Virus record (IMG/VR): IMGVR_UViG_3300006874_000073
Coordinates: 1-31,503 of that record
DNA: 31,503 bases
Source of the DNA: a virus
Reading direction: 5' to 3' (one strand)
Part shown: in pieces, positions 1-31,314 of the stretch
How the letters are laid out: every line of letters begins with the position of its first letter
Position numbering within the stretch: the stretch's first letter is position 1
Notes under the pieces: model-generated
What the model was told of the DNA's origin: nothing
What the model saw: the letters and a program-made list of their open reading frames with translations, nothing else
Databases searched by the model: none
Translations under genes and position numbers: made by a program

Positions 1-150
1 GGTAACTCAGGATCTTCTGGATCTTCTGGAACCTCAGGTTCTTCAGGATCATCAGGATCTTCAGGTAACTCAGGATCTTCTGGATCTTCAGGTAACTCAG
101 GTTCTTCAGGATCTTCTGGATCCTCTGGGTCTTCGGGTTCATCTGGAACA
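1..150 (+). repeat. Gly-X-Y collagen-like triplet repeat region
   Basis: Nine-base units of the type ggN-tcN-tcN repeat in frame, encoding GSS with occasional GNS or GTS. Third positions vary between units, so selection appears to act on the protein. The repeat continues upstream of the window edge. Confidence 0.85.
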
Positions 151-750
151 GCTACTATTAACAACAACTCTAACAACAGAGTAATCACGGGTAGCAATAC
201 TACGGGTGAATTAAACGGAGAGACAAATCTCCTATTTACTGGCTCGCTACTACAGGTTACTGGAGCTTTGGATGTCTCACAGAATGCCACTATTGATTCG
301 CTCTTAAGTGTCGCGAAGAATACACAGACAGGAATAGTACAAACAAAACCTACCGTAACTACAGCGGGATATGTTGGATCCGGATCGATAATTGCGGATC
401 AATGGGGATTACAGAATTCAACAACTGCTGGATTTATCTATGCATGGCAGGGTAACTGGAACGCCGCTGCTCAGGCTAATAACGGAAGTACTACCGCGTC
501 GGATTTGCTAGGTGTTTCACTTGATGGTGCTGCCGGTAAAGCTATCCTTCTTAGAGGGTTGGTTAATCTAGGATTTAATATATCAGGTAACGCGGGTGAT
601 ATTCTATACCTAAACGATTCATTTGCTGGACGTTGTAGTACCACAATCCCATCAGGAACTGGCGAAATTGTGAGGATAGTTGGGTATATCGTGGACGCAA
701 GCACGGAGCTCATTTACTTCTGTCCCGATAACACCTTTGTTAAGCTATAA
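1..750 (+). CDS. Tail fibre / collagen-like adhesin, C-terminal part (5' truncated)
   Basis: The reading frame is open from the first base, so the N-terminus lies outside the window; 249 residues are visible. The first 50 or so residues are uninterrupted Gly-X-Y triplets (GSS, GNS, GTS), a collagen-like stalk. An Asn/Ser/Thr-rich linker follows (about 51-85). The C-terminal domain (about 100-249) carries the pattern LLGVSLD...GKAILLRGLVNL...GDILYLND...GEIVRIVGYIVD...IYFCPDNTFV, a beta-rich module I associate with phage fibres and other virion surface proteins. It is followed 4 nt later by a methyltransferase gene and then a second fibre-like gene, so it heads a fibre and modification block. 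The Ser-rich repeats could be glycosylated by the transferases encoded at 2955-5185 (inference). Fibre assignment is likely; receptor and exact position on the virion are unknown. Confidence 0.75.
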   Translation, partial: GNSGSSGSSGTSGSSGSSGSSGNSGSSGSSGNSGSSGSSGSSGSSGSSGTATINNNSNNRVITGSNTTGELNGETNLLFTGSLLQVTGALDVSQNATIDSLLSVAKNTQTGIVQTKPTVTTAGYVGSGSIIADQWGLQNSTTAGFIYAWQGNWNAAAQANNGSTTASDLLGVSLDGAAGKAILLRGLVNLGFNISGNAGDILYLNDSFAGRCSTTIPSGTGEIVRIVGYIVDASTELIYFCPDNTFVKL

Positions 751-2669: not shown

Positions 2670-2945
2670 ATGAGCACTGAAGAAATAAAACTGCAGGATG
2701 ATGAGTTTAACGAAATAGTTGACCTCAGAAATAAAATAAGAGAGAATGTGGAATTGCTTGGGCGTATCTCCATCAAAAAACATTTTCTGGAGGTCGATTT
2801 ATCAGATCTGAATACTGAGATGTCTCTGGGACTAAAGGAATCCGAAGATCTTAATGTCAAAGAGAGGGAGCTAACGGAGAAGATCGTTCAGAAATATGGT
2901 GAGGGTAAATTAGATTTTTCCACTGGGGTTTATACGAAATCTTAA
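2670..2945 (+). CDS. Small coiled-coil protein
   Basis: A 91-aa acidic protein, mostly helical by eye, with heptad-like spacing of Leu/Ile between residues 15 and 70. It ends in a short conserved-looking tail, KYGEGKLDFSTGVYTKS. I recall similar tails in small coiled-coil proteins encoded near fibre and glycosyltransferase genes of marine T4-like phages, but cannot name the family. It sits between the DUF6445-like gene and the glycosyltransferase, whose first possible start codon follows its stop directly. Function is unknown; oligomeric scaffold or chaperone roles would be guesses. Confidence 0.55.
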   Translation: MSTEEIKLQDDEFNEIVDLRNKIRENVELLGRISIKKHFLEVDLSDLNTEMSLGLKESEDLNVKERELTEKIVQKYGEGKLDFSTGVYTKS

Positions 2946-2954
2946 TTGGATCTT

Positions 2955-3995
2955 ATGCTTGCCTCGACTGAACTAAGAAAGGTTAAATATGAGTTAATCC
3001 GCACTGTAAATGGACTGGATAGCAGGATACGTGAGATAACTGGGGGTAAACCAAGGATATTATTTGTTGCTCCCCATTTGTCCACTGGAGGTATGCCCCA
3101 GTACCTTTATAAGAAGATAGAATGCTTATATGAGGATGCTGAGATATACTGTATACAATATAGCAATACATCGGAGGCTTATGTGGTTCAGAGGGATAGG
3201 ATTTCTGAAAAATTGGGTGATAGATTTTATTGCTTGGGCGAGGATAAGAGTGAGATACTAGGACTCATTGACGATATCTGTCCCGATGTTATACACTTTG
3301 ATGATTTCGTGGAGTTCTTTGTTGATGAGGATATCTGTGAGAAGATTTTTTCCTTAGATAGACCTTATTTTATATACGAAACCTGCCACAGCTCTAATAT
3401 TTCCCCCGATGATAAATTATGGGTTCCTGATAAGCTTGTCATGGTTAACCAGTGGATGGTTGAAAGGTTCTCCCCCCTCGGTACTCCAATTGATATACTG
3501 GAATATCCGATCGAAAAAAAAGAAAGACCTCCAAGGAAAGGAGCTCTTGAAAAATTGGGGTTAAATCCAGATCTGAAACACGTGATAAACGTGGGTCTGT
3601 TTACACCTGGTAAAAATCAGGGACTCCTTATAGAATTTGCAAGGATGATGGTTGATTATCCGGTGCAGTTCCATTTTATAGGAAATCAAGCTCCTAACTT
3701 CCAATCTTATTGGGAACCCCTAATGGAGGATCTACCGGTCAACTGTAAAATATGGGGTGAAAGGAATGATACTGATGATTTTTATGCAGCTGCGGATCTA
3801 TTTGTTTTCACATCTAACTGGGAATTAAACCCCATAGTTATCAAGGAAACCCTATCGTGGCAGCTCCCTATCTTGATGAAAAGACTGGATCCTTATATGG
3901 ATTCATACGACGAGGACCCGCTAGTTTCCTATTTGAGTCCTGACTCTGTAAGTGCAGATATAGATAAGATAAAGGAAATACTTGAACTTTCATGA
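2955..3995 (+). CDS. Glycosyltransferase, GT4-type (GT-B fold)
   Basis: This 346-aa protein has both halves of a GT-B glycosyltransferase. The N-terminal Rossmann domain opens with ILFVAPHLSTGGMPQY, with the Gly45-Gly46 loop that contacts the donor phosphate in GT4 enzymes. The C-terminal domain starts near NVGLFTPGKNQGLLIEFA and contains the E-x7-E nucleotide-sugar motif (Glu290 and Glu298 in NWELNPIVIKETLSW). It probably transfers a sugar from an activated donor to a protein, glycan or cell-wall target. I preferred ATG 2955; a TTG at 2946 in the same frame adds three residues. Its stop overlaps the next start in an ATGA, so it is likely co-translated with the heptosyltransferase-like gene and may act in the same pathway, for example by extending the first sugar (inference). 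Confidence 0.8.
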   Translation: MLASTELRKVKYELIRTVNGLDSRIREITGGKPRILFVAPHLSTGGMPQYLYKKIECLYEDAEIYCIQYSNTSEAYVVQRDRISEKLGDRFYCLGEDKSEILGLIDDICPDVIHFDDFVEFFVDEDICEKIFSLDRPYFIYETCHSSNISPDDKLWVPDKLVMVNQWMVERFSPLGTPIDILEYPIEKKERPPRKGALEKLGLNPDLKHVINVGLFTPGKNQGLLIEFARMMVDYPVQFHFIGNQAPNFQSYWEPLMEDLPVNCKIWGERNDTDDFYAAADLFVFTSNWELNPIVIKETLSWQLPILMKRLDPYMDSYDEDPLVSYLSPDSVSADIDKIKEILELS

Positions 3996-5185
3996 AAGAC
4001 AGAGGAATAGAAGTATATCTGAACAATACTAAAGCTTCCAAAAAGCAGTATGATAGGCCCTTTAAATTTAGATTTAATTTCGATCGTGGACCTAAGATAG
4101 ACACGCTGAGCGGAACTGGTACCGCGATTGTTAAATTCAAGGAGGGGGATAATTCTCCTTATATTTATACGGGAGAGACTAAGAAAGGTCTTTATACTAA
4201 ACTTTTTAGGAAATGGCTTTCCCCGTGGATGGTCGAGGTTTACCAGGAGGACGAATTAATTTACTCTGCTGACTTGGATCGTGATGTTTTAATGGGATCT
4301 AAAATTAACGTCCATCTAGATAGCTCTTCTTTGGGTGATACAATAGCTTGGATCCCTGTAATCCACATGTTGATAGAGAAGTATGATTGTGATCTATATG
4401 TAAATTCATGGTGGAACGAGCTTTTATCTATTTTTTATCCCGACATCAGATTCCATCCTCCTGTCTACAGAGAAAAAAATACAAGTGCTTATATCGGAGT
4501 AGGGTGGTATGAGGAGGATAATGTGGACTATCACAAAAGGGATCCAAGGACTATCTCTTTACAGCAAGTTGCTGGAGATCAACTGGGTATTAATGTTGAT
4601 GGTGATGTATTATTCCCAGATACACCTGGAATAATTTCTAATTCTTCCCCTTCAATAGATGGAAAGTATGTTTGTATTGCTTTAGATTCCACAGCAAATG
4701 CTAAGCATTGGCACTATCCGGGAGGATGGCAATCTATCATTGATTATCTTAATAGTATTGGATATAAAGTAGTAGTCGTGCAGAAGCAGGAGGTTCAGCT
4801 GGAAGGTATTGTGGATAAAACCGGTGATGTTAGTATATTGGATAGGGCAGTCGATATCTACCACTCCGATTTTTTTATTGGTATAGGGTCAGGTCTTAGT
4901 TGGTTGGCCTGGGCTTTAAAAAAACCGGTTGTAATGATATCTGGTTTCTCCCTTCCGTCTTGTGAATTTGAGCACTTAAATTATAGGGTTATAAACAGGG
5001 GTGTTTGTCACGGATGCTTCAATGACCCTGGACATAAATTCGATAAGGGTGACTGGAACTGGTGCCCTAGATTGAAGGAAACCCCGGATAGGTTCATTTG
5101 CACTACTTCCATAACTCCTGAGATGGTTATCGATAAGATCGATCTTCTTATGCAGGAAAATAATATAACTCCAAATCTGGAGTAA
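3992..5185 (+). CDS. TibC/Aah-like protein O-heptosyltransferase
   Basis: The 397-aa sequence matches the autotransporter strand-loop-strand O-heptosyltransferase family (bacterial TibC and Aah, which put heptose from ADP-heptose on serines of adhesins). Visible family features are: an N-terminal beta-rich domain ending VEVYQEDELIYS; the SLGDTIAW block (Asp116); GVGWYE...DPRTISLQQVAGDQLGI; the donor-site block IGIGSGLSWLAWALKKPVVM; and the C-terminal cysteine cluster Cys339-x2-Cys342, Cys358 and Cys370 around FDKGDWNWCP. In TibC four such cysteines bind iron. Length is close to that of the bacterial enzymes. It overlaps the GT4-type gene by 4 nt. The context of fibre genes, plus a partial HldE-like gene at the window end, suggests heptosylation of a virion protein. 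Family is strong; acceptor and donor are inferred. Confidence 0.85.
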   Translation: MKDRGIEVYLNNTKASKKQYDRPFKFRFNFDRGPKIDTLSGTGTAIVKFKEGDNSPYIYTGETKKGLYTKLFRKWLSPWMVEVYQEDELIYSADLDRDVLMGSKINVHLDSSSLGDTIAWIPVIHMLIEKYDCDLYVNSWWNELLSIFYPDIRFHPPVYREKNTSAYIGVGWYEEDNVDYHKRDPRTISLQQVAGDQLGINVDGDVLFPDTPGIISNSSPSIDGKYVCIALDSTANAKHWHYPGGWQSIIDYLNSIGYKVVVVQKQEVQLEGIVDKTGDVSILDRAVDIYHSDFFIGIGSGLSWLAWALKKPVVMISGFSLPSCEFEHLNYRVINRGVCHGCFNDPGHKFDKGDWNWCPRLKETPDRFICTTSITPEMVIDKIDLLMQENNITPNLE

Positions 5186-5251: not shown

Positions 5252-7795
5252 ATGAGTTTTACACCAGAAAATAGACCTCCGAAGAAGGGATTACCAGTTT
5301 ATGATGGTAACGGAGATCAGAGGAATCTTTCAGACCCTAGATATAGGTACCAGGATGACCTTGCAAATACGACGAAAATTCCGGAATCTTCAACTGGTAA
5401 TTACTATGGGACTACTGGGGCTGCTTTGGCAAGAGCAGAGCAGATAGGATGTAACGGATATCATACTGCTTTAGCCTCCGATGGTGATTATTATTATGTC
5501 CCTTGTGAAACTCCCGAATGGTATGCACAAAGGATAGAGCAACTGGAGAGTGCACTTAATTTTACCTATATAGGGAATTACAGGGTACTTTCTTGGGACA
5601 CACCCTTTCAATATGTAAAAGAGCTGAAGGGTTGGATAATAGATACTGCGGGAGCTGTAGTTTCTAATTCTATTATACTCGACGGTCAGGCGGATTCTGT
5701 GATACCCAACGACATAGCCATAGACTTCAGATATTCCGTCGACGGTAAAAGTTGGTCTTTGTGGTCTAATGTAGGAACTGCTCTAACCGGACTTTCTCAA
5801 AACTATACATCGAACCTAGATTCGGATATTTTTATTGTGAATCTTGATCCGGAAAAACCATTTTATCCTGAATTCCGGTTTACCTCTGTAATGGTCAATC
5901 CTGATGGATCTATCGCGTATGAATCCAGGGAGCCGATTGATCCCTCGGTAGTAATCGTAGATTTTGATCTTGACCTGGTTTATGCTACTGGTCCAAGCGG
6001 TCCTTCCGATGTTATTATAAGAAAACCCGTTCCTAGCTGCTCTGACGAGAAGTCAAACAGACCTGTGGTTTTCGATGATTGCAATTATACCTTTGATCCT
6101 TATGCAATCAACAAGGCGGTTAATCTATATCAGGATTTAAGTCTCGTCGTTAATAAGATTTTTGGGTTTGAAACTAATTACTATTCGGTTCAACCACAAG
6201 CCAGAGGAAAGGATGTAGTCTTGAAGGAATATACACTATTTGACGTTGTTGATGAGAAATGTGTAAAAGTTGTGGTTCCATCAAACCAATTTCCTGATAA
6301 CAAGGTTAATTACGACCCTTTTGGAATACAGTTTGAAGAACCTTTTGAAATTCACATAGATAAGGCATATTTTGAGAGCATATTCGGGAGAGGATCCCAA
6401 CCCAGAAAGAGAGACATCATATACTTTCCTCTGACTAATAGGATCTATGAAATTAATTCAACATATCTTTTTAGGGATTTCATGTACTCACCCGTTTATT
6501 TTAAGATAGAACTTAAGAAGTACAGCCAGAAATCAAATACCTATTTTAGAGATCCTGCTTATAAAGAGGAGCTAGATGGAATTGTAGTTAATACTGAGAA
6601 GCTCTTCGGTGCTGAGGTTACTGACGAGGAGGAAAAGATCACAAAACCCCAGCAGTATGTAACCTCCAGCCAGAGGAGGGAAGAAGACCCAACAAGATCT
6701 TACATATATGAGAAGTTACCCATAGTTGGATATGATTTGAATAACAACTGGACCATAGTGTTTAATAACTACTATGATATGGCAGACGCTTTTGTTACTG
6801 ACAGTGAGTTTGTGTTTGAACCTAATAAATACAGAAATGCTGTAAGGTACAAGAATAGACCTTATTTGGGCGAGGACGGGGAGATATCTTACACTTGCTG
6901 GTTTAGTCTCAAGAATTATGTAAACGAAAACAGTCTTGCTAAAAAACCATTCTCCCCTGCTCCGATAACAAAGGTTTCTGAAAATTCTTCTCAGATAACT
7001 TTCTCAACGTACCCCTATAAGCATGGTCTTTCTCCGTTCTATAATTTTGCGGGTAATCCGGAGGGATATGTTTCCGTTAGAATTGATGACAACCATTCGG
7101 GAGGATATAAGGTTCTTTCTACCCCCGACGATTACAAATTTAGCATTTCTAATACCAACTTACCATATAGGGATAACACTCCAGCATGGAAAATGCAAAA
7201 AGCTCAGGCTAGAAACCTAATAGATGGAACATATCTCGACTTAAATTCGGAATTGAAAGGTTTGAGAATTGACCTGGTCCACTCCGGAACTAATGAACCC
7301 GCGAATAGCAATTACATAGAGCAGGGTAGTATAGAAATAATACTGAACGATCTGACCTACGACTCGAGATTACAATTTGTGCCGGAGCAGGGTGAGTGGT
7401 ATGGCCTTGTTGTTAATGTATCTAATCGATACAAGCAAATGGGAATAAACATTTGGAAAATGTCTTACGACCCAACGAATCCATCACAGCAATCAAGCGA
7501 TCTAGTTAAGGTTCACGAGGATTATAGGGCTTTAACCAAATCCTATACCTTTAACGCTCCTCGTGACGAGGAAACTAATTATGATAATCCCTTATACGGA
7601 ACTGATAACAATTCATACAAGATATGGACTTCTCCGATACTATTGAGCAACGTTAGACTGTTTAAAAACATGATAGATATAGATAAGCAATCCATAGTCC
7701 TTAACCAGAATGTGGTTAGAGACGAGCAACTTGCTTATATAATAGACAATGCAAAACCTAAGCTGATATTACCAAAATTTGCTAGAAATCGGTAA
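5252..7795 (+). CDS. Neck protein gp14-like, with LamG/concanavalin-like C-terminus
   Basis: This large 847-aa protein appears to be modular. Residues 1-95 hold a GATG-like stretch (TTGAALARAEQIGCNGYHTA). Residues about 95-250 look like a beta-sandwich. Residues about 265-480 contain the block RKRDIIYFPLTNRIYEI followed by VYFKIELKKYSQKSNTYF, which I match to the T4 gp14 neck family (pattern: a P-x(n)-yFPl-n-YEI strand pair, then a y-f-k-ELkky-ye segment). Residues about 510-847 look like a LamG/concanavalin-type domain (GEWYGLVVNVSNRYKQMGINIWKM). T4 gp14 is only about 256 aa, so this is a much expanded version. Position just before terminase genes fits the T4 order 13-14-15-16-17. The neck role is moderately supported; the lectin-like domain suggests a decoration or glycan-binding function. 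Confidence 0.6.
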   Translation: MSFTPENRPPKKGLPVYDGNGDQRNLSDPRYRYQDDLANTTKIPESSTGNYYGTTGAALARAEQIGCNGYHTALASDGDYYYVPCETPEWYAQRIEQLESALNFTYIGNYRVLSWDTPFQYVKELKGWIIDTAGAVVSNSIILDGQADSVIPNDIAIDFRYSVDGKSWSLWSNVGTALTGLSQNYTSNLDSDIFIVNLDPEKPFYPEFRFTSVMVNPDGSIAYESREPIDPSVVIVDFDLDLVYATGPSGPSDVIIRKPVPSCSDEKSNRPVVFDDCNYTFDPYAINKAVNLYQDLSLVVNKIFGFETNYYSVQPQARGKDVVLKEYTLFDVVDEKCVKVVVPSNQFPDNKVNYDPFGIQFEEPFEIHIDKAYFESIFGRGSQPRKRDIIYFPLTNRIYEINSTYLFRDFMYSPVYFKIELKKYSQKSNTYFRDPAYKEELDGIVVNTEKLFGAEVTDEEEKITKPQQYVTSSQRREEDPTRSYIYEKLPIVGYDLNNNWTIVFNNYYDMADAFVTDSEFVFEPNKYRNAVRYKNRPYLGEDGEISYTCWFSLKNYVNENSLAKKPFSPAPITKVSENSSQITFSTYPYKHGLSPFYNFAGNPEGYVSVRIDDNHSGGYKVLSTPDDYKFSISNTNLPYRDNTPAWKMQKAQARNLIDGTYLDLNSELKGLRIDLVHSGTNEPANSNYIEQGSIEIILNDLTYDSRLQFVPEQGEWYGLVVNVSNRYKQMGINIWKMSYDPTNPSQQSSDLVKVHEDYRALTKSYTFNAPRDEETNYDNPLYGTDNNSYKIWTSPILLSNVRLFKNMIDIDKQSIVLNQNVVRDEQLAYIIDNAKPKLILPKFARNR

Positions 7796-10508: not shown

Positions 10509-13500
10509 ATGGCAAAGAAAATCAAACTTGATTTATCACAATTCAAAGCCTCGGGTGTTTATACACTGGAGTTTGATGCATCGGAGAATATTATTCTAAC
10601 CTCACAGACGATCAGATTGGTTGTTGGGTTTTCGAATAAAGGACCTTTTAACGCTCCCGTATATTTACCAGATGTCACTACTGCAGTAGCAATCTTTGGA
10701 GATATAGACAAGACTTTAGAAGCAAAGGGCTCTTATTTCCATAGATCTATATTCTCTTGTTTATCTACTGGACCCGTATTTGCTCTGAATTTGTTAAGTC
10801 TAAATAACGACGAAAGCAGCTCTAACGCTGATAAGGTTAACTACTTCGGATATTCTATTGATACTGAACAACCTAACGGGGTATTAACTTCCAGGCTTTA
10901 CTCATCATTCTATAATAAGGAGAGATTCTGGTTTGCTGATACTAACTACTTCTTAGCTACTCTTTCTACTGTTGATACTGGTAGACTCTTTAACCTGGTT
11001 AACTTAGGTAAGGAGCCAATGAGTGTGATTGTTAGAAAATCAACCGATGCCAATCCACCCCTACAAGGATTTGATGTTTTTGCAATTGACTGGTATGGTG
11101 CAGATAACGTTCCTAGTTTCATGCACCCGTATGACTATATTTCGGACTATTTTGTGGATGTTATATCGGTCTCCGGAGATTGGACTGACTATGAAACTCT
11201 TGCTCTTGACCCCAAATGGAGTTCTTACTTTACCAACAACGGATTTGTTAAGAGCCAGATAAATAGCTTCTTATCTCAGCCGGATGTGAATATAGTAACT
11301 CAGCAAACTGGATGTTTGATTCCCGATTTTGTTGATCTGAACGGTAATAATCAGTATATCCAAACCCTGATTAATAACAACACCCCTTCTACTGGACTTT
11401 TCTGTGCAGTCGACGAAGATGCGATGGAGTCATTATGTACAAATCCATACAAGATAGATTTGGTTGGACATCACCTTATTGATGAACTGACCGCTGATAG
11501 AGATATAGTTGATGCTAGATTGGACTTCCTTAGCTATGATCAGAATCTGACCGCTGATTACCTATATGCAAAGAATTCCAATTCACTAGCTGACGGTGCA
11601 ACGGGTGCAACCGGTACTATAAAAACAGGTACTCTATTCTCGCTTTACGATACAGCAGGAGCAACTGCGGGTATTACAAAGGACGGTTTTGATGCTTATG
11701 ACTCATCACTAACCTACGGGGGATTACACTATCTAAAGACAAACAGCGGTGTCACTGGAGCTTCTCTAACATCTGCTCAGAAAACAACACTTGTTGATTT
11801 CGCACAACCTTCGGCTACAAGCTCTCCCTATATTATAGGTAAGGTTACCGGGGTTAGTGGCTTAACCGGCTCTGTTATAAACCAATTCTCTGAAAACGAC
11901 CTAGTTAAACTTAAGATATCTGGAGCTATACAGAGTGGAGGAGAGGTATTGTTGACGTGGACACACCCGTTAGATACTGCTTCATATGCTGCTCAGGGTA
12001 TTTCAGTAAGTCCATATAGCGATATAGAAGGAGCTACGGGAGCGGTTGTTGCTGATTACTACCAGGTAGTAGCATCTGACTATCTTGATATAGATAGCGT
12101 AAACTCTGTTACTGGTGGTACTGCATCTAATGCTCTTAACGGGCAACTCTCTACCCAATTCTACCAGGATTTATTTTACGATGAATTAGCAGACGGGGAT
12201 CAACTTTGGTTGAACTCTGCTGGTACTAGCCTGAACTACATAACTTACGAAAACACGATAGACAGAGATCAGTACAAGGTATCTTACGCTAGGGCTTTCA
12301 ATAACACGGCGAGACAGAATCCTTCCCAACTGGAAGACTATCCTGCTTTTGGTACAGTGTATGCTTCGGATAATATAGGATCCAGTGTTTCTTCAAATAG
12401 AACTGATATAGTTTCCTCTGTTGGTTCAATCAATGAGTTCGTAAATGTTATTACCAATATAGATCCAACGAACTTCACTATATCTTCTTCACCGTCATCT
12501 CCTATCTCGGTTGGTGACTTGCTAGTATCAACGGATTTGGATATTTGTGAAACTGTAGGACAGAATAGACAAAACAGATTAACTAGAGTAACAGCAGTTG
12601 CACAAACTGCTACTGCAGGGGTTGTTAAAGTGACGACTGCTAGACCAGTTTACTACTATGCTGGCTCACCTATCCAAGTACAGAAGTTTAAATCGATCCC
12701 TCAGTTTACTAGGTCTTTCGATTTCACTTACTTGAATGGATTCACGATGAATAACAGCCATAGACCCAATGGGACAGACGCTCGAGTTTCTGAACTGTTG
12801 GATGTTATGTATGATACAAATATCGCTGCTACCCTTGCTACTAAGGATGTGATATCATTCAGATATATTGTTGATACGTTCAGTGGTCAAATTTTGCCTA
12901 ACTCTAAGTATCAGCTTAGCAAACTTGCAATGATGAGGCAGAAGGCTCTTGCTTTGATTAATGCACCTTCAATGGAGCAATTCAGGAACTCTACAGATCC
13001 TAGATTTACTGATGCACCAACAGCAACTAATCCTTATCCTCCTCTAAAGTCTCAGTATATTGCTGAAGGTGGTAATTTATCTCTTAACCCATCATATACT
13101 TTCAGCTTACCTACTGAGGATCAGGGAGCTAAGTTCGCGGCTTATTACACCCCATATTTGACTGTTAGGGAGAACAATAAGAATATAAACGTTCCCCCTG
13201 CGGCATACATCTCCAACAACTTTGTGAGGAAATTTGCTAACGGCGAGCCTTATAATATCATAGCTGGACAGAAAAGAGGGGTTATTTCAGGTAATAACCT
13301 AGTAGGTGTTGAATATGACTTCACCGATGCTGATAGAGGCTGGTTGGAGCCTGTTGGACTTAACCCTCTGATAAAGAAAAGAGGGATAGGCGTAGTTATC
13401 TTTGGTAACCAGACAGCATATCAAACAGTAAATTCTGCCTTTAATCTCGTACATGTTAGGGACCTTCTCATTAGCTTAGAAAGCGACGTAGAGGAAATCC

Positions 13501-13778
13501 TATCAAATTACCTATTTGATTTCAATGAGGATTCAATTAGACTTGAGATAAAAACCCTCGTTGATAATTATCTGGATGGGGTAAGAGCTGGCGGAGGAAT
13601 TTATGCTTACCAAGTTATAATGGACTCTTCGAATAATACCCCTGCTATAATAGACCAAAATATGGGAATTATAGACGTGATAATAGAACCTGCTAGAGGA
13701 ATACAGAAGTTCATAAACAGAATAACTGTAACAAGAACTGGCGGTATTTCTGCGGGAGGATTCATACAATTCGTTTAA
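10509..13778 (+). CDS. Tail sheath protein, gp18-like
   Basis: This 1089-aa protein has the N-terminal contractile-sheath pattern (LVVGFSNKGPFNAPVYLPDV, then FGDIDKTLEAKGSYFHRSIF). Its C-terminal region is the conserved sheath core that interlocks neighbouring subunits: LVHVRDLLISLESDVEEILS, then a domain ending VDVIIEPARGIQKFINRITV or similar (read as IIEPARGIQKFINRITVTRT). T4 gp18 is 659 aa, so about 400 extra residues lie between the ends; that middle part (about 350-800) is Gly/Thr/Ser-rich and contains ATGATG-type stretches, consistent with surface-exposed insertion domains. It is followed by two tail tube genes, the T4 order. It would surround the tube and contract to drive it through the host envelope. 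Two candidate promoters precede it. Confidence 0.93.
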   Translation: MAKKIKLDLSQFKASGVYTLEFDASENIILTSQTIRLVVGFSNKGPFNAPVYLPDVTTAVAIFGDIDKTLEAKGSYFHRSIFSCLSTGPVFALNLLSLNNDESSSNADKVNYFGYSIDTEQPNGVLTSRLYSSFYNKERFWFADTNYFLATLSTVDTGRLFNLVNLGKEPMSVIVRKSTDANPPLQGFDVFAIDWYGADNVPSFMHPYDYISDYFVDVISVSGDWTDYETLALDPKWSSYFTNNGFVKSQINSFLSQPDVNIVTQQTGCLIPDFVDLNGNNQYIQTLINNNTPSTGLFCAVDEDAMESLCTNPYKIDLVGHHLIDELTADRDIVDARLDFLSYDQNLTADYLYAKNSNSLADGATGATGTIKTGTLFSLYDTAGATAGITKDGFDAYDSSLTYGGLHYLKTNSGVTGASLTSAQKTTLVDFAQPSATSSPYIIGKVTGVSGLTGSVINQFSENDLVKLKISGAIQSGGEVLLTWTHPLDTASYAAQGISVSPYSDIEGATGAVVADYYQVVASDYLDIDSVNSVTGGTASNALNGQLSTQFYQDLFYDELADGDQLWLNSAGTSLNYITYENTIDRDQYKVSYARAFNNTARQNPSQLEDYPAFGTVYASDNIGSSVSSNRTDIVSSVGSINEFVNVITNIDPTNFTISSSPSSPISVGDLLVSTDLDICETVGQNRQNRLTRVTAVAQTATAGVVKVTTARPVYYYAGSPIQVQKFKSIPQFTRSFDFTYLNGFTMNNSHRPNGTDARVSELLDVMYDTNIAATLATKDVISFRYIVDTFSGQILPNSKYQLSKLAMMRQKALALINAPSMEQFRNSTDPRFTDAPTATNPYPPLKSQYIAEGGNLSLNPSYTFSLPTEDQGAKFAAYYTPYLTVRENNKNINVPPAAYISNNFVRKFANGEPYNIIAGQKRGVISGNNLVGVEYDFTDADRGWLEPVGLNPLIKKRGIGVVIFGNQTAYQTVNSAFNLVHVRDLLISLESDVEEILSNYLFDFNEDSIRLEIKTLVDNYLDGVRAGGGIYAYQVIMDSSNNTPAIIDQNMGIIDVIIEPARGIQKFINRITVTRTGGISAGGFIQFV

Positions 13779-13827: not shown

Positions 13828-14382
13828 ATGGCTGGTTTATCACATTATCAAAATTCGCTAAATGCAGTAAATAAATTCGAGCCGGTATTCCTCAATCAAT
13901 TTGAGGTAACGGTAGTTCCTCCTGCTGCAGTAGCGGGTGGTCCTGTTTTATTGGAACATGTGGTCTCAGTTGCTGGCTTGGATGTTGATAAAAATCCTGG
14001 GTTTGTTTCTCAGAAGTATAAATTTGCTAAAAGGAACTATGCCGGGGGTAAGCCAGACACTACTACCTTGGACTTGGGTGTGAAGTTTACGGTAAACCTT
14101 GACGAGGCTAATTCGATGTATGTCTTTAAAACCCTAAGACAATGGACGGATCTTATCTATAATCCTATAACGGGTGCCCAGGGGATAAAGGCTGATTATA
14201 CTGGAACTATAGTTATATCGGTATTTAATAAGAATGGTGATGTTTTTAGAAGAATTACCTGTAAGGATTGCTTTCCGCTAAAAGCTATAGATCCTATGGA
14301 ACTTGAGTACATTAATGGTACTAATCTCTACGAGATAAATATGACTTGGGCAGTTGATTACTGGCAGGATCTATTCCTATAA
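13828..14382 (+). CDS. Tail tube protein, gp19-like (copy 1)
   Basis: A 184-aa tube subunit. Features shared with T4 gp19 and its relatives are the start (FEPVFLNQFEVTVVPP), a central KYKFAKRNYAGGKPDT turn, the LRQWTDLIYNPITGAQGIKADYTG block and the closing FRRITCKDCFPLKAIDPMEL segment that packs hexameric rings. It follows the sheath by 49 nt, with an A/T-rich leader containing GATAAATATAAA (13801). Size is close to T4 gp19 (163 aa). A paralogue follows 16 nt downstream. The tube carries DNA and the tape measure inside the sheath. Confidence 0.9.
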   Translation: MAGLSHYQNSLNAVNKFEPVFLNQFEVTVVPPAAVAGGPVLLEHVVSVAGLDVDKNPGFVSQKYKFAKRNYAGGKPDTTTLDLGVKFTVNLDEANSMYVFKTLRQWTDLIYNPITGAQGIKADYTGTIVISVFNKNGDVFRRITCKDCFPLKAIDPMELEYINGTNLYEINMTWAVDYWQDLFL

Positions 14383-14398
14383 AAAAACAGAAGTATAG

Positions 14399-14977
14399 AT
14401 GGCAGGTTTACCACATTTTAATAATTCAAAAGCAGCTAGAAATAACTACGAACCAGTATTTCTAAATCAGTTTGAGGTTTTAATCACTCCTCCTGCTGCT
14501 ATAACTGCTGCGAATACCACTTTTAACGGTGAGAGCATTCTGACTCAGCAAGTTAAGAATATAAGTGGTTTGTTGGTAGACATCCAGCCTAGTGCTCCGG
14601 TAACCCAATACTACAAGTTTGCTGAAAGAAGGTACGCAGGTGGTGAGCCATCTACGTCGGATGTTCAGTTTACTGCATCCTTCGAGGTAAACCTGAGCGA
14701 CAGCAACTCTATGACCATTTACAAGATACTAAGACAGTGGTCAGATCTTATTTACAACCCACTGACTGGTGCTATGGGTCTAAAGAGAGATTACGTGGGT
14801 ACGATGGTCGTCTCCATCTTTAACAAGCAGGGAGACGTATTTAGAAGGATCACTTTGAATAACTGCTTCCCAGTAGAGCCTATAAACCCAATGAATCTAA
14901 GTTATGACAGTGGTGATGCACTTTACACCATTGATACTACTTGGAAGTCCGACTATTGGAAGGACCTGTTCTTATAA
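14399..14977 (+). CDS. Tail tube protein, gp19-like (copy 2)
   Basis: The 192-aa protein is a clear tandem paralogue of the preceding gene: both open MAGL-HF/HY-NS, both have NQFEV, KFA-R-YAGG-P, LRQW-DLIYNP-TGA and FNK-GDVFRRIT, and both end DYW-DLFL. It is 8 residues longer, mainly from an insertion around residues 40-52. Both copies look intact, so each is probably used. One may form the main tube, and the other a terminal ring, a baseplate-proximal ring or an alternate subunit. In T4 those adapter roles belong to gp54/gp48 and gp3, which differ from gp19. Confidence 0.88.
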   Translation: MAGLPHFNNSKAARNNYEPVFLNQFEVLITPPAAITAANTTFNGESILTQQVKNISGLLVDIQPSAPVTQYYKFAERRYAGGEPSTSDVQFTASFEVNLSDSNSMTIYKILRQWSDLIYNPLTGAMGLKRDYVGTMVVSIFNKQGDVFRRITLNNCFPVEPINPMNLSYDSGDALYTIDTTWKSDYWKDLFL

Positions 14978-28085: not shown

Positions 28086-29708
28086 ATGGCAGGATTTACT
28101 GAAAGTCCACAGGGAAATCCCATATTTCAAAGGATTCGTGACTCCGTAAAGGGGCTGAGTAACTTTGGTATGCGCTATGGTGATATGGTTATTAAGAACT
28201 CTCAAGCCATAGGACAGACCGAGGCTGAGTTCATGAAGAAGGGCAATATAGAGGATGAAACGATGCTCTATTCCCTCGGGAGGCAGGACACCTCTACCCG
28301 GCAGTTTATTGGATATTACGATAAGGACTATGTCGGTAAGAGGGATTACCTCCGGAAGTTTTCACTCAATCCTGAGATTGAGTATATTATCGACACTGTT
28401 TGTGATGAGTCCATTACATATGACTCTTACAATTTCTTTGCTTACCCTGCTTTTCTAAATCTTACTGATGTTAAAGATAAGGTTAAAGACAGAATAGAAT
28501 CGAATTACAAGAAGCTCTATGATATGTTCGGCTTCAGTGATGATATAACTGCGTGGCAGTATTTCAGACAGCTGATTATAGATGGATTCCTTGCATTCGA
28601 GATTGTTTATGATGATAGCGGTAAGGAGATAATTGGATTTAAGGAATTAGATTCTACCACATTAATGCCTTCGGTTGAAAAACAGAAGGATGGAACTTGG
28701 TTGAATGTTTGGTACCAATATCCAAAGGATCAGAACAAGAGGAGAATGCTATACGATTCTCAAGTCATATACATCTCCTATGCGAAGGGTAATTCAGTTT
28801 CGAGGGTAAGTTATACGGAGAGATTGATAAGGCCTTATAACGTGCTAAGAATAATCGAATACACAAGGGTTATATGGTCTGTTATGAATGCTTCATTCAG
28901 GATGAAGATGACAGTTCCTATTGGCTCTAGGTCTCCTCAGAAGTCTATGCAGACATTAGGAGAATTAATGAGTATCTACAAGGAGGATATAAGATTCAAT
29001 GACGAAAGTGGGGAATTGACCATAGACGGAAGACCTAAGATTCAATTTTATAAGAATTACCTTATGCCTTCAGGTGTAAACGGTACACCTACTATAGAAC
29101 CACTTAACAATGCTGGACCAAACCTAAATGATCCTCAACCGCTGGCTTATTTCTTCGATAAACTTGTGCAGGAATCTAAAATACCATTCTCTAGATTCCA
29201 GGGGCCTGATGGTGGATCGATTGGAAATTATAGCAATGGAGCTGAGGGACTCGACAAGGAAGAAATAAGATTCTCCAAATTTATTAGCAGGTTGAGATCT
29301 ATTTTTCAGGATATACTGGTTAAACCACTCTGGATTCAGATGTGTAGAGATTTCCCAGAGCTGGAAAAAGACTACTTATTCAAAAGTCAGCTTGGTCTAA
29401 ATTTTGTTTCAGATAATCCTTTTAAGATCAACCAGGAGATAGAGATTATGACAAAGAAGAAGGAATCGATCGATTCCCTCTATGGTCTTACTGATGATGA
29501 CGAGAAACCTTTCTTTTCTTTGGCTTATCTGATAGAAAACTATCTCGGCATGAACGAAGACGATATAAAAGCTAACAAAGAGGCTAAGGAAAAGAGAGCA
29601 GAGGAGAAGAAAAAAGAGGAAGAAAGTAAAAAAGAGGAAGAGGGTGGAGAAGAAACACCAGAGGAAACCACAGAAGAAACCCCGGAGGGTACTGAGGGGG
29701 AAACCTAA
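28086..29708 (+). CDS. Portal vertex protein, gp20-like (copy 1)
   Basis: This 540-aa portal has the T4 gp20-family blocks: YDKDYVGKRDYLRKFSLNPE, LIIDGFLAFEIVYDDSGKE, IGFKELDSTTLMPSVEKQ, VIYISYAKGNSVSRVSYTER, the GRPKIQFYKNYLMP stretch and the C-terminal EEIRFSKFISRLRSIFQDIL followed by VKPLWIQMC. Size is close to T4 gp20 (524 aa). The end is a Lys/Glu-rich tail (about residues 495-540). Portals form the 12-subunit ring at one vertex through which gp17 packs DNA. A second intact paralogue follows 10 nt downstream, which is unusual. Confidence 0.92.
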   Translation: MAGFTESPQGNPIFQRIRDSVKGLSNFGMRYGDMVIKNSQAIGQTEAEFMKKGNIEDETMLYSLGRQDTSTRQFIGYYDKDYVGKRDYLRKFSLNPEIEYIIDTVCDESITYDSYNFFAYPAFLNLTDVKDKVKDRIESNYKKLYDMFGFSDDITAWQYFRQLIIDGFLAFEIVYDDSGKEIIGFKELDSTTLMPSVEKQKDGTWLNVWYQYPKDQNKRRMLYDSQVIYISYAKGNSVSRVSYTERLIRPYNVLRIIEYTRVIWSVMNASFRMKMTVPIGSRSPQKSMQTLGELMSIYKEDIRFNDESGELTIDGRPKIQFYKNYLMPSGVNGTPTIEPLNNAGPNLNDPQPLAYFFDKLVQESKIPFSRFQGPDGGSIGNYSNGAEGLDKEEIRFSKFISRLRSIFQDILVKPLWIQMCRDFPELEKDYLFKSQLGLNFVSDNPFKINQEIEIMTKKKESIDSLYGLTDDDEKPFFSLAYLIENYLGMNEDDIKANKEAKEKRAEEKKKEEESKKEEEGGEETPEETTEETPEGTEGET

Positions 29709-29718
29709 GAATAATTAA

Positions 29719-31314
29719 ATGGCAGGATTTCTAGATAACATACAGGAAAGGACCTTCTTAGGTAACTTATATCGTAACCTTAGTAGAATCGGGAGGTTTG
29801 GTATGAAGTATGAGGATATGGTAATCCGTAATTCTCAGGCTATCGGACAGACCGAGTCCAATTTTTTTGACCAGCAGGGAACGGGATTTACTGAAAACTC
29901 GGCTTTTAGGTGGACACTCGGGTATCAGGATACCAAGATAAGAAAGTACATAGCATATTTCGACAAGGACTATGTGGGTAAGAGGGATTTTCTAAGGAAG
30001 TTCTCCCTTAATGGAGAGATAGATTTCATCCTAGATACGCTTACTGATGATGCAATAAATTATGATGATAAGAATTTCTTTGCATACTCGAAGGTAGCTA
30101 ACATGGAGCTAAAGGATGAGGTTTTGGATAGTATGGACAGTAGATTCAGGAGTCTCTATATGATGTTCGGGTTCCAACAATCGATATTGGCTTGGCAATA
30201 CTTCAGACAATTCTTGATTGATGGATTTTTGGCCTTTGAGATAGTATACTCAACTGATGGTAAAAAAATAGTGGGTTTCAAAGAACTCGATCCAACCTCA
30301 CTTCAGCCTGCTACTGAGCCACAAGAAAATGGCGAGTATAAGCAGATCTGGATACAATACCCGGAGGATAACAAAATGACCAGAAAGCTCAGGGATGAGC
30401 AAATAATTTACTTATCCTATGCTAAGGGAAATACTATTTCTAGAGTTAGCTATATCGAAAGACTCATAAGATCCTACAATATACTCCGAATAATGGAGAA
30501 TACTAGGGTTATATGGAATGTGATGAATGCCTCTTATAGACTCAAGTTCGTTATTCCTGTTGGGACCCAGTCACCTCAGAAAGCTATGAATACCTTGGGT
30601 CAATTGATGTCCATTTATAAGGAAGAGATTGAACTTAACGATTTTTCAGGAGAACTTACTGTTAACGGAAGGCCAAAGGTGCAATTCTATAAGAACTATC
30701 TTTTCCCTGAGAAGGATGGGCAATCTCCTGAAATCTCCACATTGGATCCTGCAGGGCCGGATTTTAATGTAATGGAAAACGTGGTATATTTCTACAATAA
30801 ACTCAAGCTTGATTCTAAGATACCATATGCTAGATTTTCTTTCCGTGGTGGAACTCCGGCTAATTACCAAATAAGCATAGATCAATTGGAGAGGGATGAA
30901 ATAAGGTATGAGAAATTTTTGACGAGACTGAGATCGATATTCCAGGAGATACTAGTTAAACCACTTTATATACAGATGTGCCTGGACTACCCTCATCTTG
31001 CTAAAGATAGGTCTTTCAAAGTTAATCTTGGTCTTGAATTTACAAGGGAGAATATCTTTGAACAATTCATACAGCTTCAGAACTATACCAAGAGGGCAGC
31101 TTTTGTGAATGATCTTGGTGAAATGAAGCAGAAGATTGGTGAGGAGGAGGTTCCTTATTTTGATAAGGAATTCTTGATAAAGAGATGGCTTGGACTAACC
31201 GTGGACGAGTATAAGAAAAACGAGAAGTACAAAGAGAGGGAGGAGAAAGAGGCCGAGGAAAAGGCTAAGGAAGCTGGGGGTGAGGAGGAATCTTCAGCTG
31301 ATTTTACACTATAA
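29719..31314 (+). CDS. Portal vertex protein, gp20-like (copy 2)
   Basis: The 531-aa protein aligns with copy 1 throughout: DMVIRNSQAIGQTES, DKDYVGKRDFLRKFSLNGEI, QFLIDGFLAFEIVYSTDGK, IVGFKELDPTSLQP, IIYLSYAKGNTISRVSYIER, NGRPKVQFYKNYLFPEK and DEIRYEKFLTRLRSIFQEIL. It also ends in a charged tail. Differences cluster near the region after YFYNKLKLDSKIPYARFSF, where copy 1 has a distinct FQGPDGG loop, and in the C-terminal 90 residues. No stop or frameshift breaks it, so both copies look functional. A mixed or alternative portal ring, or a non-portal role for one copy, would need testing. Confidence 0.9.
   Translation: MAGFLDNIQERTFLGNLYRNLSRIGRFGMKYEDMVIRNSQAIGQTESNFFDQQGTGFTENSAFRWTLGYQDTKIRKYIAYFDKDYVGKRDFLRKFSLNGEIDFILDTLTDDAINYDDKNFFAYSKVANMELKDEVLDSMDSRFRSLYMMFGFQQSILAWQYFRQFLIDGFLAFEIVYSTDGKKIVGFKELDPTSLQPATEPQENGEYKQIWIQYPEDNKMTRKLRDEQIIYLSYAKGNTISRVSYIERLIRSYNILRIMENTRVIWNVMNASYRLKFVIPVGTQSPQKAMNTLGQLMSIYKEEIELNDFSGELTVNGRPKVQFYKNYLFPEKDGQSPEISTLDPAGPDFNVMENVVYFYNKLKLDSKIPYARFSFRGGTPANYQISIDQLERDEIRYEKFLTRLRSIFQEILVKPLYIQMCLDYPHLAKDRSFKVNLGLEFTRENIFEQFIQLQNYTKRAAFVNDLGEMKQKIGEEEVPYFDKEFLIKRWLGLTVDEYKKNEKYKEREEKEAEEKAKEAGGEEESSADFTL

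Follow-up and report, generated by a model that had tools for sequence, protein, structure and literature searches.

The closest described relatives of the enzyme studied here are the canonical autotransporter (BAHT) enzymes TibC and AAH. In TibC, Asp110 is the catalytic base, Thr226, Lys230, Arg286 and Trp305 contact the donor, four cysteines (339, 342, 358 and 370) make up the iron-finger, and both the dodecamer and activity depend on a thumb formed by a beta-hairpin (F265, V266) (PMC4358343). TibC modified Ser, not Thr, in tested peptides, and the sites in TibA are N-S-G-G and T-S-A-A (PMC4358343). TibC domains in phages are not new to databases; UniProt A0A6J5SVC1, from an uncultured Caudovirales phage, is already named 'Glycosyltransferase Aah/TibC'. 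Among the papers covered by a literature search for phage TibC enzymes, none dealt with their function or acceptor.

The window analyzed here is a 31,503-nucleotide stretch of viral DNA (IMG/VR record IMGVR_UViG_3300006874_000073). It is a T4-like phage fragment with genes for a terminase, a tail sheath and two tail tubes as well as portal-like genes. A previous sequence-only reading had described a phage-encoded enzyme in a T4-like phage with fibre genes adjoining it, and both points held, as the window carries these structural genes and opens on the end of a fibre gene (Table 1). Because the portal is nearest to those of huge, Lak and other Bacteroidota phages, the host may belong to the Bacteroidota. 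We rejected a mis-binned bacterial gene as the source of the tibC-like gene, since dozens of viral contigs carry it in synteny amid genes for structural proteins. Among the other genes of the window, two adjacent ones (28086-29708 and 29719-31314) both match phrog_213 (portal protein), the tail-tube paralogues lie in tandem (13828-14382 and 14399-14977), and the tail sheath (10509-13778) is unusually long at 1089 aa. A small SAM-methyltransferase-like protein (752-1324) is followed by a Thr/Asn/Ala-rich protein (1306-1980), and L093, a contig from a Flavobacteriales bin that resembles a phage, has a comparable pair upstream of its GT4-TibC genes.

Table 1. Features of the window that bear on the predicted glycosylation cassette and its proposed acceptor.
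Position	Strand	Feature	Evidence
1..750	+	C terminus of a fibre protein, in which residues 1-49 (1-147) close a Gly-X-Ser array, the proposed acceptor	PF01391 collagen, tail-fibre PHROGs
2670..2945	+	Small conserved gene, upstream cassette edge	Synteny
2946..3995	+	GT4-family retaining GT-B glycosyltransferase; likely start TTG 2946 or ATG 2955	PF00534, synteny, fusions, fold search
3992..5185	+	Predicted short-thumb TibC-like O-glycosyltransferase, 397 aa	TIGR04414, TibC PDB match, AF2/Foldseek, tree
4337..4339	+	Asp116 codon, equivalent of TibC catalytic Asp110	TibC alignment, 126/126; role from PMC4358343
4691..4705	+	Thr234 and Lys238, equivalents of TibC Thr226/Lys230 (beta-phosphate contacts)	Alignment; PMC4358343
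4766..4843	+	TibC thumb region, cut to 26 residues (259-284)	Alignment, AF2 model
4844..4846	+	Arg285, equivalent of TibC Arg286 (adenine contact)	Alignment
4880..4903	+	Donor block GIGSGLSW; Trp304 is the equivalent of TibC Trp305	Alignment; PMC4358343
5006..5101	+	Four-Cys cluster C339, C342, C358, C370, iron-finger equivalent	Invariant in alignments, 126/126 homologs
5252..7795	+	Neck/head-closure gene, downstream cassette edge	PF11649, phrog_679, synteny

The tibC-like gene opens with ATG and shares 4 nt with the end of the GT4 gene that precedes it. Its product comprises an N-terminal beta-barrel, a GT-B/GT9-like core and a putative four-Cys iron-finger. The NCBIfam model TIGR04414 (hepto_Aah_TibC) matched it with 249.9 bits (E 3.7e-74), above the curated cut-off of 200 bits, and TibC (4rap/4rb4) was its sole PDB relative by sequence (E 4.6e-46). 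The AlphaFold2 model (pLDDT 93.9), which has barrel strands at residues 25-94 in addition to the GT-B core, retrieved TibC 4rap as the top PDB match in Foldseek (TM 0.84 over the full length). A PHROG profile search gave no match to the protein. We considered and rejected an LPS heptosyltransferase (WaaC/WaaF/WaaQ), as TIGR02193 scored 27.1 against a cut-off of 185, RfaQ scored 15.3 against 467, and the folds of WaaC/F gave a TM of only about 0.5. The sequence-only reading had assigned the gene to the TibC/Aah superfamily from a SLGDTIAW block, a donor block (GSGLSWLAW) and a four-cysteine cluster; all three are present in the protein, and the profile search and fold comparison with TibC that it had proposed both bear the assignment out. 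It had also called this an unusual way for a phage to glycosylate its own fibre, which is true only in part, since relatives are encoded by 189 stretches in IMG/VR, many large phages carry the gene, and one phage protein already bears the Aah/TibC name in UniProt. A decaying gene was rejected because dN is 0.12-0.36 with dS saturated or 2.8. The tibC-like gene is thus phage-encoded, conserved and under purifying selection, and its sequence suggests that it probably represents a subfamily of TibC/Aah protein O-glycosyltransferases found in phages.

TibC was compared in one alignment with 126 unique homologs, taken from viral contigs and from genome contigs. The catalytic Asp, the Lys, the Trp and the four Cys were kept in 126/126, and the Thr226 position was occupied by Thr or Ser in every homolog except one. 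The window protein retains all of the TibC donor residues, Arg included (D116, T234, K238, R285 and W304), and its cysteines are spaced C-x2-C-x15-C-x11-C. The Arg286 equivalent is missing from most fused-type viral enzymes. At the stereoselectivity position, which is Pro300 in TibC and Ser294 in AAH, the window protein has Gly299. The thumb segment is 26 residues long in the window protein versus 35 in canonical enzymes; the thumb tip F265/V266 has no counterpart in the alignment, and there is no hairpin in this region of the AF2 model. A short thumb is typical of the second branch of the family (see below) and not universal, with segments of 31-37 residues in a few members (L040, L079, L082, L105, L093, L094 and L099).

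The phylogenetic tree contained 86 rows and was built by a quick search with the thumb columns removed and SH-aLRT support, with no bootstrap. It split (SH-aLRT 99) into two sets. One holds TibC and the other canonical cellular enzymes, 39 rows in all; the remaining 47 rows comprise 36 viral ones, 8 short-thumb cellular ones, and L093, L094 and L099. L093 and L094 resemble phage contigs placed in Flavobacteriales bins. The window protein fell within a 13-row viral clade (support 100). No autotransporter partner was found among the annotated neighbours of the window gene, where there is a Gly-Ser fibre instead; as controls, the two long-thumb loci checked, L117 and L157, are adjoined by autotransporters, matching the published pattern. 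Judged by sequence, the window gene is in a separate sister branch and is not a canonical autotransporter (BAHT) enzyme. The earlier identification as an adhesin-type heptosyltransferase was therefore right as to superfamily and not as to the canonical type, given the sister branch, the lack of a thumb and the lack of an autotransporter partner. In the tree with TibC and phage members that it had called for, the window enzyme and TibC are on opposite sides of the split. If the fibre-glycosylation model proposed below is right, the TibC family has two branches that differ in their partner protein and in whether the ring-forming thumb is present, so that automatic names such as 'autotransporter strand-loop-strand O-heptosyltransferase' say more about the sister branch than is known. 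In L066, L067, L068, L078 and L080, a shorter second TibC-like gene (288-331 aa) directly adjoins the main one.

The GT4 partner of the enzyme was absent from the sequence-only reading. In close relatives, which were located via the terminase, the gene order small gene - GT4 - tibC - neck - g8 - terminase is near-universal. Fusions of a GT4 to a TibC domain occur in 14 distant viral ORFs, and GT4-type domains come ahead of the TibC domain in Microcystis phage Mel-JY01 and others. The GT4 model matched the folds of retaining GT-B enzymes (BshA, HepE-like and WaaG), with no donor indicated. Because the GT4 partner is syntenic or fused, an extended glycan is expected rather than a lone heptose, and we infer that the GT4-tibC cassette is a protein O-glycan pathway in which TibC would act first and GT4 second. 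Variable neighbours of the cassette in relatives encode GT2, sulfotransferase, FkbM methyltransferase and pyruvyl transferase proteins. GT2 or sulfotransferase genes were also seen upstream of the cassette in L172 (1580-4062), L189 (1502-4037) and L220 (1276-2097), and this position is likely a site of glycan variation.

The Gly-Ser-Ser array at the fibre end (1-147 in the window) is seen at greater length in a sister contig (G001), where the equivalent fibre ORF contains at least 610 G-X-S/A triplets and no Pro. The Y position of this array is Ser in 587 of 610 triplets and Ala in 23, while the X position is Ser (488), Thr (99) or Asn (19). The resulting context, G-[S/T/N]-S-G, can be set beside the N-S-G-G and T-S-A-A sites of TibC, and because the peptides tested with TibC were modified at Ser and not at Thr (PMC4358343), we limited the acceptor prediction to Ser.

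To compare viral contigs of at least 20 kb, we used a DNA pattern for Gly-[Ser/Thr]-Ser to pick 50 and, as controls, picked 36 with a Gly-[Ala/Pro]-[Gln/Glu] pattern and 26 with a random 15-mer. In these samples, which follow scan order and are not strictly random, and in which the array was verified in some but not all of the chosen contigs, a TibC domain was present in 19/50 of the Gly-[Ser/Thr]-Ser contigs versus 2/36 of the non-Ser collagen-like contigs (Fisher p=7e-4) and 0/26 of the random contigs (p=1.4e-4). The effect comes from contigs of at least 60 kb (15/23 versus 1/14, p=6e-4, and 0/7 random), and there was no significant enrichment among those of 20-60 kb (4/27 versus 1/22). Nearly all of the 31 Gly-[Ser/Thr]-Ser contigs without a visible TibC gene are fragments. 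One relative, G065, has the array, and a TibC domain was not found in its fragment. In the distant viral branch, 22 representative loci were examined over fetched flanks of 8 kb, and 13 of them have Gly-Ser/Thr arrays; the Gly-Ser pattern occurs in 21 of 34 TibC-positive records of the near clade, the 13 others being nearly all fragments. In some close relatives the collagen near the cassette is of the GAQ type instead, and two such records had no Gly-Ser match. Six relatives lack the cassette at its usual place, and two of these have a TibC domain elsewhere. Common descent can account for part of the association.

A similar association was found in bacteria. Within the fetched flanks of bacterial genome contigs (up to 6 kb), Gly-Ser/Thr arrays lay near 7/9 short-thumb enzymes versus 1/71 long-thumb enzymes (p=9e-8), and the sole long-thumb case, L094, is probably a phage contig. 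Because six of the seven array-positive short-thumb enzymes form one gammaproteobacterial clade (the seventh is L105), enzyme and array may have become coupled independently only a few times. The arrays at the six gammaproteobacterial loci are in small lipoprotein-like proteins. These loci (L087-L092) pair the enzyme with proteins ending in GSS/GTS arrays, several of them acidic-tailed, and at the loci checked a DUF6502 gene is close by, adjoining the enzyme in L088, L090 and L091. The suggestion that the Ser-rich GSS repeat at 1-150 of the window is the acceptor thus gains independent comparative support from both viruses and bacteria.

Taken together, these data suggest that the enzyme probably O-glycosylates the Gly-X-Ser fibre of its own phage on serine, with heptose as the probable sugar. 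The computed support consists of homology, the conserved active site and cysteines, the separate branch, the missing thumb, the GT4 coupling and the array association in viruses and bacteria; the activity, heptose donor, acceptor, oligomeric state and purpose of the window enzyme are what we infer. During infection the enzyme would work in the host cytoplasm, where it would place a sugar on the array serines; this sugar is most likely heptose, taken from ADP-heptose of the host. Its GT4 neighbour would probably extend this first sugar, and the GT2, sulfotransferase or methyltransferase genes found nearby in relatives could modify the glycan further. As to a virus-encoded ADP-heptose pathway, which records that are fragments may fail to show, heptose adenylyltransferase gave only weak matches, in 4/51 viral records and in none of the close relatives. 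Since most viral records have no recognizable heptose adenylyltransferase, the donor would have to be supplied by the host. Weak TIGR02199 (heptose adenylyltransferase-like) genes occur in the TibC-positive viral records L083-L086. Because the last triplet position is nearly always Ser and proline is absent, the sugar may stabilize or rigidify the array. The passage of PMC11766948 that cites Mann 1996 describes Riftia cuticle collagen as stabilized by glycosylated Thr in place of hydroxyproline, and by analogy the proline-free Gly-X-Ser array could be stabilized by glycans, with any triple helix being hypothetical. It may instead be that the glycan shields the fibre from proteases or host factors.

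The absence from the window enzyme of the thumb that TibC needs for activity counts against fibre glycosylation, and other explanations were weighed. A variant in which the enzyme modifies Ser of the Gly-Ser array with a nucleotide sugar other than heptose would fit both the loss of the adenine-contact Arg286 from most fused-type viral relatives and the lack of a heptose adenylyltransferase in most viral records. The window clade, however, keeps the Arg, Thr, Lys and Trp donor contacts, and we regard this variant as rather unlikely. The cassette could also alter host surface glycans (LPS/O-antigen) against superinfection, as has been proposed for the glycosyltransferases of the pelagimyophage host-recognition cluster, which occupy the matching genomic position by fibre and neck genes (PMC7029224). 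GT4, GT2 and sulfotransferase neighbours could assemble such glycans, but the enzyme is of the TibC type, with a beta-barrel and iron-finger, and is far from LPS heptosyltransferases in both profile scores and fold. In addition, no membrane or flippase genes were seen adjoining it, and its association is with Ser arrays, in bacteria as well, which makes host-surface modification quite improbable.

A target elsewhere in the virion (neck, sheath, head fibre or the Thr/Asn-rich protein at 1306-1980), with the Gly-Ser array as a passenger of large phages, would explain why the gene adjoins the neck and terminase genes in nearly all relatives and why several TibC-positive records have no visible array. 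We consider this distinctly improbable, because the enrichment is specific to Ser arrays over other collagen-like arrays and because the gammaproteobacterial enzymes are paired with lipoproteins where phage proteins are absent. The TIGR04414 equivalog match would be expected of a captured canonical enzyme that acts on autotransporter adhesins of the host, but the sister branch, the missing thumb, the lack of a nearby autotransporter and the long persistence within a structural-gene cassette leave this scarcely credible.

Glycosylation of the phage's own fibre, if true, would give a function to common uncharacterized glycosyltransferases of T4-like and huge phages, which are usually read as host LPS modifiers, and would make virion glycosylation testable. 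We give about even chances to a broader proposal, in which TibC enzymes of an undescribed non-autotransporter branch, present both in large phages and in Gammaproteobacteria, attach glycans to Gly-X-Ser arrays that lack proline, and phage fibres of hundreds of triplets depend for their stability or shape on O-linked glycans (probably heptose-based and extended by GT4) and not on proline or hydroxyproline. Such glycosylated arrays would be a new way of building a long fibre.

Several known systems resemble this locus in part. Riftia cuticle collagen, as described in the passage cited above, likewise has a glycosylated hydroxy residue in place of hydroxyproline in Gly-X-Y repeats, but it is an animal protein modified on Thr by another enzyme, and the analogy is functional only. 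The pelagimyophage host-recognition cluster also has glycosyltransferases by fibre genes and next to a neck gene, although these were read as LPS-modifying and heptosyltransferase is unmentioned (PMC7029224). Mel-JY01 WWT39291.1 (annotated as an FkbM methyltransferase) combines a C-terminal TibC-like domain and GT4 in the same protein; it differs in being a fused protein of 1226 aa, in a record where a Gly-Ser array was not found. The viral proteins A0A6J5SVC1 and A0A7S9XE01 (Virus NIOZ-UU157) contain a TibC-like domain with a TM of 0.82-0.84 to the query, although within larger proteins of 924 and 985 aa. With TibC and AAH (BAHT, TIGR04414), the window enzyme shares the fold, N-terminal beta-barrel, catalytic Asp, donor residues and four-Cys cluster. 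It differs from them in its separate branch (SH-aLRT 99) and in having neither a thumb nor an autotransporter partner, and it has instead a GT4 partner, a probable Gly-X-Ser acceptor and Gly at the Pro300/Ser294 position.
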